Below are positions 1 to 2,428 of a stretch of 32,196 nucleotides of DNA, piece by piece. The notes beneath the pieces were generated by a model, which saw only the letters and a list, made by a program, of their open reading frames with translations, had not been told where the DNA came from and made no database searches. The DNA lies in contig LCOC01000003.1 of assembly GCA_001000545.1 (NCBI GenBank), positions 1-32,196 on the forward strand. The letters run 5' to 3'. The DNA is from Parcubacteria group bacterium GW2011_GWA2_47_21. GTDB lineage: Bacteria > Patescibacteriota > Minisyncoccia > Phycocordibacterales > DSPV01. A program made the position numbers and the translations under genes. How positions within the stretch are numbered: the first letter of the stretch is position 1; every line of letters begins with the position of its first letter.

Positions 1-42
1 CCTTTCGGACTCATCAGTCCCGACACACATCGGGAGAACAGC
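1..42 (-). ncRNA. Type III hammerhead ribozyme, truncated by the window edge
   Basis: Minus strand: GCTGT-T-C | TCCCGA TGTGTG TCGGGA CTGATGA GTCC GAAA GG. It has a UUC cleavage triplet, a 6-bp stem I, the core CUGAUGA, and stem II GUCC/GG(AC) cut by the edge. The GAAA core and second stem III strand would lie outside the window. Confidence 0.82.
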
Positions 43-103
43 GGGACGATTTTCATCATCCCAGTAGTTTCCGCTCACCAAGCGCCGAGGAGCTTCCCCT
101 CGG
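43..103 (-). ncRNA. 61-nt three-hairpin structured motif, copy A (3' of the 190-522 ORF)
   Basis: Minus: CCGAGG-GGAAGCT-CCTCGG / CGC-TTGGTGA-GCG / GAAACTACT / GGGATGAT-GAAA-ATCGTCCC. Aligns without gaps to copy B (1050-1110), with identical loop GGAAGCT and compensatory stem changes. Confidence 0.7.
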
Positions 104-189: not shown

Positions 190-522
190 TCACTCGATTG
201 CCGGATAGGCCTTGGAAGAGATGAGCTCCACCGTCCTTATTGTGGGGTTCCACCGCACGACCATCTCCACTCTGGTCGGTTGCCCGTTGGTGAGATATCC
301 TACCGCAGTGGCCGCATGCACTCGAAAGTGCTCCAACAAGTTGGTGGACTTGGTCTCCACAATCACTTGCCCGTTCGTTCCCTGCCCAACTACCCTCCAG
401 TGGTTGGTGGGAAAAAATGTGCGGTTGTACTGACTTTTGTCAGTTTCCACGACGCACCCAACGGCAATGAGAGTTGCGACTGCCAAAATGGCAATCCCGA
501 TGTTATTGGTTTTCATGTTCAT
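190..522 (-). CDS. Small lipoprotein-like secreted protein (110 aa)
   Basis: ORF begins MNMKTNNIGIAILAVATLIAVGC, a signal peptide with a lipobox-like cysteine. It has an upstream promoter-like element and a structured leader. Confidence 0.6.
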   Translation of the reverse strand: MNMKTNNIGIAILAVATLIAVGCVVETDKSQYNRTFFPTNHWRVVGQGTNGQVIVETKSTNLLEHFRVHAATAVGYLTNGQPTRVEMVVRWNPTIRTVELISSKAYPAIE

Positions 523-568
523 AGTGCCCTAGATACTGTCTCACAGCATCCAAAACACTATGAACATG
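514..568 (-). promoter_or_regulatory. 5' leader hairpin sequestering the start codon of the 190-522 ORF
   Basis: Perfect 13-bp inverted repeat CATGTTCATAGTG (514-526) / CACTATGAACATG (556-568). The ATG (520-522) lies in the downstream arm. There is an inner GATGCTGT/ACAGTATC stem. Confidence 0.65.
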
Positions 569-955
569 TTTTACAAAGAACTATACTCTATGAATCCGCG
601 AAAATCTTTTGTTCGTGGACTCAAGAAAGTGGAGCAAAAGCCTGCTCCATATCCGATGGACACCTCGCCACCTTCCCGCTTCGCCACATATGCAACATGT
701 AGCATCTACAACCAGCGCCACCTCTTTTGGGCTTTGTTGGTTTCTTGAAAAAGAACACATGAACCAGTTTCGTAGCATTCTGACGCCATCTATCTATTTG
801 GTCCAAATGGTGACCTTCGCTCTCTCATTACGCACCCGGCTCCAAGCGATATGGCCGTCTTCGCCTCCGTACTCCAAACCACGGTAGCGGGTTGGCCGTT
901 TAATGAGAAGTCCCTCAATCTCTATGAATCCGCTTCATTTTTGACGAAACGAACT

Positions 956-1001
956 CAAAAAAGTGAGGAATGTCTGGTTTTTGAATTGACCAAGACATTC
1001 C
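956..1001 (-). terminator. Rho-independent-like terminator downstream of the DUF1874 unit
   Basis: Minus: GGAATGTCTTGGT...ACCAGACATTCC followed by TCACTTTTTTG. Confidence 0.65.
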
Positions 1002-1049: not shown

Positions 1050-1110
1050 GGGATAGAATAATCTACCCCAACAGTTTCGGCTCGTCAGGCCCTTCGGAGC
1101 TTCCCCGAAG
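1050..1110 (-). ncRNA. 61-nt three-hairpin structured motif, copy B (3' of the DUF1874 ORF)
   Basis: Minus: CTTCGG-GGAAGCT-CCGAAG / GGC-CTGACGA-GCC / GAAACTGTT / GGGGTAGA-TTAT-TCTATCCC. Same length and layout as copy A. Confidence 0.7.
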
Positions 1111-1156: not shown

Positions 1157-1504
1157 CTACTCGGAAACTGTAAACAAGGCGAAGCTGAACTTCGCGCCTG
1201 CCACTTCTTCCTGTGTGTACTCGTGCCGGTTCTCCAACCGGGGGAGTCCGCTGACCCCCATCACCAAGGCCCTTTCGCCGCTCTGCACAACCACGCTCGG
1301 CGCTTTCGGTGGGATTTCCACCGAGATACCGAAACGGGTCTGCATCACATCGATGCTCGCCTTATGGGATGGGTTGAGACAAGAAACCACACCGCCTGCA
1401 ATGACCTCCTTTGCCTGCTCCACCGTAAGCGTCTGCTTACGGATGGTGCAGTTGGAGGGGAACATGCTGGGGGCGATTCCGAATCCGAAGTATGTTTTTT
1501 GCAT
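1157..1504 (-). CDS. DUF1874 / STIV-B116-like protein (AcrIII-1/Crn2 viral ring nuclease family)
   Basis: NPSHKASIDVMQTRFG aligns with the family motif xxGH(x)(S/T)xxLxxxLG. GERALVMGVSGLPRLENRHEYTQEEVAGAKFSFALFTV matches the family C-terminus. Alignment is from memory. Confidence 0.75.
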   Translation of the reverse strand: MQKTYFGFGIAPSMFPSNCTIRKQTLTVEQAKEVIAGGVVSCLNPSHKASIDVMQTRFGISVEIPPKAPSVVVQSGERALVMGVSGLPRLENRHEYTQEEVAGAKFSFALFTVSE

Positions 1505-1547
1505 AGCGACCTAAAACCTAACAATAAGTTTCAGATCGCCATGCAAA
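1498..1547 (-). promoter_or_regulatory. 5' leader hairpin sequestering the DUF1874 start codon
   Basis: Minus arms TTTGCATGGCGATC (1547-1534) and GGTCGCTATGCAAA (1511-1498) pair over 14 bp with two G-U wobbles. The ATG (1504-1502) is in the 3' arm. Confidence 0.65.
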
Positions 1548-1582
1548 ATGATTGTTTCCAAAGAACTGTGCTATACTGAATT

Positions 1583-1740: not shown

Positions 1741-2428
1741 ATGGAAGAAAAAATTTTAATGGATTGTGGTTTATCGGCCGAGCAAGTAAAAGTGTATCTG
1801 TTCCTCCTGAAGAACGGCCAAGCACCGGCCAAACGCATCGCCACGGCCACCGGTGTTGGCCGAACTCTTACCTATAAAGTGCTGGAACAATTAATCGCCC
1901 TGGAGCTTGTAGAAAAGAAGGACAACATAACGAAAGTGACATTTTTCTTTCCAGCTCACCCGCAACGCTTAAAAGAACTTGCCGCTAAAAAACTTCAAAC
2001 CACGGAACAAGCTACCGCAAACTTAAACTCCATCTACGGAGCCCTAACCTCCGAACGACGATATTTTAAGTATTGGCCAGGAGATCAGAGTAATCAGCTC
2101 CCCCATTGAAGAAGGTCGCAAAGAAATTCTCCATTTAATTCGCGAACAAATACAAAAACAGGTAGCGCAAAACATCAAAACTAAAGCGATTACTCCGATT
2201 GGACATCAAGAAATCGCCACGCCAGTGGCGGAAGACGAAAAATATTTAATAACTCGCAAAATAGTGCCGAAAGACGAATTACATATACCGGCTCAAATAA
2301 TTATCTATGGCGAAAAAGTGGCTATCACCAACTTTAAAGAAGGTTTCATTAATGTTCTTATGGAAAGCAAATATATCGCCGACACATTTCGGATTATGTT
2401 TGAATATATGTGGAACAAAATTCCTTAG
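1741..2428 (+). pseudogene. TrmB-like transcriptional regulator, frameshifted
   Basis: ORF 1741-2109 carries an N-terminal winged-HTH of TrmB type. The continuation ILSIGQEIRVISSPIEEGRKEILHLIREQ...FEYMWNKIP is read in the +1 frame to 2428. Confidence 0.6.

Follow-up and report, generated by a model that had tools for sequence, protein, structure and literature searches.

Hammerhead ribozymes in TrmB-linked small-gene arrays of Patescibacteria: a possible relay of self-cleavage and antitermination yielding end-protected single-gene mRNAs

The DNA analyzed here, referred to below as the window, is a stretch of 32,196 nt at the start of a contig of Parcubacteria group bacterium GW2011_GWA2_47_21. 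Its left end carries small genes and structured elements on the minus strand and a divergent gene for a TrmB-family regulator (Table 1). The regulator gene runs from frame 3 into frame 1, and its intact homologue in G001, a genome of the same family, encodes 265 aa; the frameshift is either the mark of a pseudogene or an assembly error. The first array gene encodes a STIV_B116-like protein that is 65-87% identical to the first array gene product in G001, G068, and G390. A PDB search with this protein gave no match, and a role as a ring nuclease is possible, the activity being inferred. The 110-aa ORF had been called lipoprotein-like in an earlier inspection of the letters alone (the sequence-only reading); a hydrophobic N terminus followed by Cys makes this plausible, and no family match supports it. 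Both start-codon hairpins of the window are long and lie directly after a boxA-like site, as do similar ones in loci L040 and L041, and an element similar to the inverted repeat is present in G001. The unit holding the second D1 copy has an 89% identical counterpart in G065.

Table 1. Features at the left end of the window (positions in the window)
Feature	Position	Strand	Basis or comment
Truncated type III hammerhead ribozyme	1-42	-	Sequence read; covariance model E 1.7e-7
Hairpin GGGATGAT-GAAA-ATCGTCCC abutting hammerhead stem III	43-62	-	Relatives have hairpins or pseudoknots there
D1 element, copy 1: two adjacent hairpins, then GAAA	63-103	-	
3'-UTR pseudoknot or hairpin (GGTT..GGCC / GAAAG..CTTCC) after the stop codon	154-180	-	Probable; imperfect consensus match
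Small ORF, 110 aa, lipoprotein-like	190-522	-	No known family
Inverted repeat, 3' arm holding the start codon of ORF 190-522	514-568	-	
BoxA-like AGTTCTTTGTAAAAC before ORF 190-522, no hammerhead here	568-582	-	Consensus from relatives
TTGAGTYC...GGATTCATAGAG hairpin element just 5' of the boxA-like site, in the hammerhead's place	586-624	-	
Second copy, TTGAGTTC...GGATTCATAGAG element	920-958	-	
D1 element, copy 2 (1070-1110), and following hairpin (1050-1069), 3' of the STIV_B116-like gene	1050-1110	-	
First array gene, STIV_B116-like	1157-1504	-	PF08960 below cut-off; weak Csx16 match
Hairpin, 3' arm holding the start codon of ORF 1157-1504	1500-1545	-	
BoxA-like AGTTCTTTGGAAAC in the array leader	1554-1567	-	
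Divergent TrmB-family regulator gene, frameshift-split in the assembly	1741-2428	+	Comparison with the G001 homologue

At the very edge of the window, the minus strand reads GCTGTTC^TCCCGA-TGTGTG-TCGGGA-CTGATGA-GTCC-GAAA-GG, after which the contig ends, window base 1 being base 1 of contig C3 in the source assembly. The elements follow in the order stem III 5' strand, UUC triplet, 6-bp stem I, CUGAUGA, and start of stem II; this is a type III hammerhead of which the contig end has left the 5' three quarters, and the sequence-only reading had recognized these elements correctly. The GAAA that is visible belongs to the stem II loop and is not the catalytic one. Past base 1, where the assembly has no sequence, would lie the end of stem II, the catalytic GAAA, and the 3' strand of stem III. 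A CUGANGA core stands between stems I and II, and a NUH cleavage triplet precedes stem I as UUC at positions 38-36, GUC being the commoner form. Cleavage is predicted between 36 and 35, the same site as proposed before, self-cleavage itself being inferred. With our own covariance model, built from 36 complete relatives, the fragment scored 30.8 bits (E 1.7e-7 in the 32-kb window, runner-up E 0.43), and it reached E 2.6e-6 in a class-wide search. The Rfam models, to which the sequence-only reading had looked for a check, returned no hammerhead on the window, whether at the cut-off or with E<10 allowed, owing to the truncation of the motif; RF00008 had no match across the whole source genome. 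At the level of its letters, the fragment is thus confirmed as a real hammerhead beyond chance.

Four relatives with a U-U-C triplet (L096, L097, L115) carry GAAAA, not GAAA, before the stem III strand, so that the bases lost to the left of the window are more likely GCTGTTTTCGT than GCTGTTTCGT; the latter, predicted earlier, is probably one base off. The lost sequence would more likely read GAAAACAGC than GAAACAGC. Two other interpretations of the contig end were rejected. A second hammerhead in the D1 element (GCCTGACGAGCC..GAAAC) was discarded because a covarying hairpin has the CUGACGA as its loop and the element reached only E 5.2 with the model. A chimeric or contaminating contig end, considered for the higher GC content of bases 1-1500, was dismissed since G001 has the same first gene and likewise a divergent TrmB gene. 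The ribozyme lies 3' of a small ORF (190-522), as had been stated. It is, however, no isolated 3' element: it is one of the separators in a multi-gene array, a context invisible to the sequence-only reading.

This context emerged from the relatives. A DNA search with bases 1-1750 against 99 related genomes found pieces in other families, several ribozyme matches among them. RF00008 detected hammerheads in 18 of 294 genomes across the phylum and in 66 of 399 across the order, often with several per locus, and our own model detected them in 32 of 392 genomes of the class. It is important to consider that the RF00008 scores of the relatives are mostly 25-48 bits against a gathering score of 48.5, which is a curator's cut-off and not a structural feature, and that the window has no such score. 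Only 4 of the 399 genomes of the order pass this threshold, and consequently public annotation would not show these hammerheads. A whole-GTDB scan for the ribozyme followed by the boxA-like motif named Zambryskibacteria, Wolfebacteria, Paceibacterota, and unnamed or uncultured bacteria, which agrees with the earlier placement of the element in a CPR-type genome. One Phycisphaerales record (L131, JAESRA010000017) was excluded as misbinned because its hammerhead and ORF are identical to those of a Wolfebacteria contig (NVTD01000062, L100/L133). No match to the combined pattern was found in 2.9 million viral contigs.

A strict search pattern requiring the core, GAAA, three stems, and U16.1-A15.1 recovered 87 complete type III hammerheads from the fetched loci and none from three shuffled copies; the catalytic GAAA is present in 87 of 87, and L041 3055-3118 is a complete example. 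Among 36 equal-length members, 98.3% of stem cells are paired (95% in stem III), 13 of 15 base pairs show double changes, and covariation is strong in all three stems. The double changes numbered 167, against 46.5 in shuffles; the covariation score was reached by 0 of 500 shuffles and collapsed when partners were slid by 1-3 columns. Judged by this covariation, the hammerhead of the relatives is a genuine, maintained RNA structure.

At most order-level loci, the ribozymes sit between small ORFs, several per locus (three in L041, four each in L082, L083, and L088, and six in L085). Of the ORFs that are 90 aa or longer and lie no more than 500 nt from a ribozyme, 101 are on the ribozyme strand and 27 on the opposite strand. 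A TrmB-family gene, divergent or co-directional, is found upstream at most order-level loci with enough flank, and such genes are rare, with 21 in 16 genomes. Among held-out loci, most of which belong to other orders of the class, a TrmB gene was present in 10 of 30 fetched stretches; this association is weaker but still far above the roughly 2% expected, as estimated from TrmB density.

Most of the 61 array proteins scanned matched no family. The families matched were GNAT, receiver, methyltransferase, histidine phosphatase, helix-turn-helix, RNA polymerase alpha C-terminal domain, cold-shock domain, Csx3, and STIV_B116-like; no integrase, reverse transcriptase, capsid, or other structural phage family appeared among them. 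Additionally, the first genes of arrays include two kinds of putative cyclic-oligoadenylate ring nuclease, STIV_B116-like and probably Csx3 (L096 3449-3817, minus strand), and their place beside TrmB regulators makes a signaling or anti-defense theme possible. A phage or plasmid origin was rejected: the DNA matched no phage or plasmid, no viral contig carries the combined ribozyme and boxA-like pattern, and relatives of both window proteins, sought in viral contigs, were not found there.

The same array gene families recur across genomes beside different neighbors. In G475, gatC and ligA are parted by a region with a TrmB gene and an array; in G620 the two genes are direct neighbors, and in G533 only a small ORF comes between them. 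From such comparisons, the arrays look like shuffling accessory-gene islands. The hammerheads could then be mainly DNA-level repeats, serving as separators for integron-like cassette recombination with self-cleavage incidental, and the shared genes in differing orders, the interrupted gatC-ligA pair, and one ORF-plus-3'-UTR unit that is 89% identical between families in different surroundings would all suit this. We nevertheless hold it quite improbable, as no site-specific recombinase was seen and the helices stay paired while their sequences diverge, a pattern accounted for by selection for RNA structure but not by DNA homology. Integron attC sites were also rejected as an identity for the hairpins, no attC core pairs or integrase having been recognized, without a formal scan. 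G475 does contain repeats of about 45-60 bp scattered through its genome in dozens of copies (L087 3030-3100 and 5206-5273), outside the hammerhead array.

The units between the genes have a recurring order: a 3' pseudoknot or hairpin, the hammerhead, a boxA-like GTTCTTTGAAA, a 5' hairpin, and the ORF. An H-type pseudoknot was found in the 60 nt upstream of 21 of 86 ribozymes, against 1.8 in shuffled sequences, and in 5 of 25 held-out cases against 0.45; its last strand usually abuts stem III. The pseudoknot sequences vary while the pairing is kept (for example, GGTT/AACC with GAGTT/AACTC; GGAG/CTCC with GGGGT; CGTT/AACG with ACCAG). Other hammerheads have plain hairpins in this position, as in the window at 43-62, and at some loci the D1 element comes before such a hairpin. 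The 120 nt upstream and downstream are also more strongly folded (mean z of about -2.4 and -2.7) than random stretches (-0.57). Furthermore, recurring 3'-UTR motifs upstream of hammerheads, such as stem-AGAAAA-stem-TTTGAACAGAA and stem-GAGTAAAC-stem-CTGAAACTGAAACAAA, were noted in L082, L083, L085, L088, L106, L108, L109, and L114, and they look like further structured RNA families. The TTGAGTTC-stem-loop-GRATTCAYAGAG element of the window occurs again at L040 4469 and 5893 and at L043 311, often just before a boxA-like site, and apparently stands in for the hammerhead as a separator.

The D1 element, of about 41 nt, has a constant loop GGAAGC and changing stems followed by GAAA. Besides its two window copies (63-103 and 1070-1110, minus strand), it lies at L040 6494, L041 2996 and 3673, and L043 377. 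It matched no Rfam family and may be an undescribed structured RNA. Its place directly 5' of the hammerhead in L041, as in the window, together with start codons held within hairpins, raises the alternative that the ribozymes are off-switches: cleavage would trigger decay, and a signal (a protein, a ligand, or ribosome passage) would block cleavage and turn the gene on, with D1 and the start-codon hairpins as sensors. This is unlikely in our judgment, since D1 turned up in only four genomes and also without a hammerhead, and many hammerheads have a sequence-variable pseudoknot or hairpin instead. Such variable structures fit end protection better than ligand sensing.

On the other side of the ribozyme, the boxA-like motif (scanned as [ACT]TC[TA]TT) occurs within 28 nt downstream of 57 of 87 hammerheads, against a background of 8.6% and 1 of 87 upstream, mostly 5-10 nt after the catalytic GAAA. 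A G directly precedes it in 56 of the 57, giving the consensus G[T/A]TCTTTGAAA, which agrees with the published GYTCTTTAANA-type boxA consensus (PMC5725501). In held-out genomes, it follows 9 of 25 ribozymes (p = 1.5e-4 versus background). About a third of the hammerheads, and nearly two thirds in the held-out class-level set, have no recognizable boxA. Both boxA-like sites of the window have no hammerhead in front, and the pairing of its own ribozyme with such a site is beyond view because of the contig end. The strict motif was also found in three of nine 16S leaders of the lineage (GTTCTTTGAAA in G071, GCTCTTTAAAA in G001, and GCTCTTTGACA in G039); G025 and G006 have no motif, and the remaining leaders with one have only looser forms that chance alone could explain. 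NusB is encoded in 14 of the 16 array genomes, the search finding none in G000 (73% complete) or G001.

That the TTCTTTGAA motif is boxA, the site of NusB-S10, is inferred from these comparisons of sequence without binding or termination data. It remains an appreciable, if minor, possibility that GTTCTTTGAAA is some other signal, such as a promoter piece, an RNase site, or a translation element: the motif is short, its loose forms arise by chance in 16S leaders, and functional data are absent. A boxA identity is favored over this by the agreement with the published consensus, the strict form found in some 16S leaders of the lineage (G001 and G071 included), and the narrow spacing 3' of the ribozyme.

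Cleavage by a type III hammerhead leaves a 2',3'-cyclic phosphate on the upstream product and a 5'-OH on the downstream one. Structured ends, with a pseudoknot or hairpin at the 3' side and a hairpin at the 5' side, are presumably handled poorly by end-dependent nucleases. In antitermination, boxA RNA is tethered to the polymerase via NusB/S10. On this background, and from the observed ribozyme architecture with its covariation, the array context, the enrichment of boxA-like motifs and pseudoknots, and the TrmB neighborhood, we propose with moderate confidence that the ribozymes cut a long transcript into end-protected single-gene mRNAs and that a fresh boxA reloads antitermination after each cut. 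The fragment at 1-42 would be an intercistronic hammerhead of a TrmB-controlled small-gene array, transcribed as a single long RNA away from the regulator. Each hammerhead would cleave the nascent RNA between two genes; such cleavage in cells is inferred, in the absence of expression or cleavage data. The upstream mRNA would then end in a pseudoknot or hairpin directly before the cyclic phosphate (in the window, the hairpin at 43-62 would be this released 3' end), and the downstream mRNA would begin with a 5'-OH directly on the stem I hairpin. The two ends would, by inference, be protected from the usual end-dependent decay. The cut would also part the polymerase from any boxA bound upstream, and as it should release the tethered boxA, each cut would need a new one 3' of it, in a relay. 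NusB-S10 may reload on the boxA just 3' of the ribozyme and so sustain transcription through a long, structured, and poorly translated array; this reload logic is, like the function of boxA here, an inference. The wider reading, that mobile TrmB-controlled arrays with possible ring nucleases are expressed in Patescibacteria as end-protected single-gene mRNAs through such a relay, is put forward only tentatively, its chances falling a little short of even.

The released units might instead close into circular mRNAs like those of retrozymes and satellite RNAs, which might enable genes to move. Units between two type III hammerheads all have the right ends for this, array genes are common to distant genomes in differing combinations, and the closest relative of the fold is presumably a satellite RNA ribozyme. 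We give this very little credence: the RtcB ligase is absent from 16 of 16 array genomes, with positive search controls, no reverse transcriptase or integrase family occurs among the 61 array proteins, and circles were sought for bacterial arrays and not detected (PMC3088659). The missing ligase and this earlier failure to detect circles disfavor circularization.

The ribozymes share with RF00008 the CUGANGA...GAAA core, the NUH triplet, and three stems in type III order, and with its satellite-RNA type a TGTG-type loop I and a short purine loop II; we take the fold to be like that of the satellite-RNA-type hammerhead sTRSV. They differ in forming multi-gene arrays on a bacterial chromosome and in lying nearly all below the gathering score. 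Clustered hammerheads flanking single genes have been reported in prophages of Agrobacterium tumefaciens (ardA, marR), Azorhizobium caulinodans, and Clostridium scindens; the genes flanked include the anti-restriction gene ardA, near which a marR gene lies (PMC3088659). These clusters cleaved natural polycistronic fragments of about 2 kb in vitro, and one trio cleaved in E. coli (PMC3088659). The parallels are several hammerheads flanking single genes, a variable gene content, an anti-defense-type gene with a winged-helix-type regulator nearby, and the cutting of polycistronic RNA into gene-sized pieces in vitro, demonstrated for the prophage arrays. However, those clusters were assigned to prophages with integrases, whereas the present arrays lie on Patescibacteria chromosomes with a TrmB regulator, showed no structural phage proteins among those scanned, and have a boxA-like site directly 3' and a pseudoknot directly 5' of the ribozyme.

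In rrn operons, boxA stands at the start and again before 23S, with RNA processing between units (PMC10250234). The arrays resemble this antitermination system (boxA, NusB/S10) in repeating a boxA-like site before the next unit, with inferred processing in between; their units are, in contrast, small protein genes, and a ribozyme, not RNase III, would cut in cis. With integron cassette arrays, they share a single control gene followed by small genes that are co-directional and mostly unknown, as well as common cassettes in differing orders, but no integrase was seen here, and the separators are hammerheads, pseudoknots, and boxA-like sites instead of attC.

The hammerhead ribozyme and its clustered use flanking genes are thus already known. 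What was not found in the searched literature is the Patescibacteria lineage, the chromosomal TrmB-linked setting, the boxA-like coupling, and the 3' pseudoknots; searches for hammerheads together with Patescibacteria/Parcubacteria or antitermination found nothing, most subscription papers and preprints lying outside their reach, and this absence is not proof. The purpose of clustered bacterial hammerheads has been an open question since the 2011 report, and a large, sequence-diverse set with a recurrent context (pseudoknot, ribozyme, boxA-like site, 5' hairpin, gene, and TrmB) makes it testable. If true, the proposed relay would tie self-cleaving RNA to processive antitermination. The arrays also reveal small-gene islands in Patescibacteria that standard annotation has overlooked, because the ribozymes fall below the Rfam threshold and the genes, mostly unknown, are small. 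Hammerhead arrays occur elsewhere in the phylum as well (L047, L048, and L049 in G276; L050 in G229); their loops differ and no clear boxA follows them, and those of G229 again adjoin TrmB genes.
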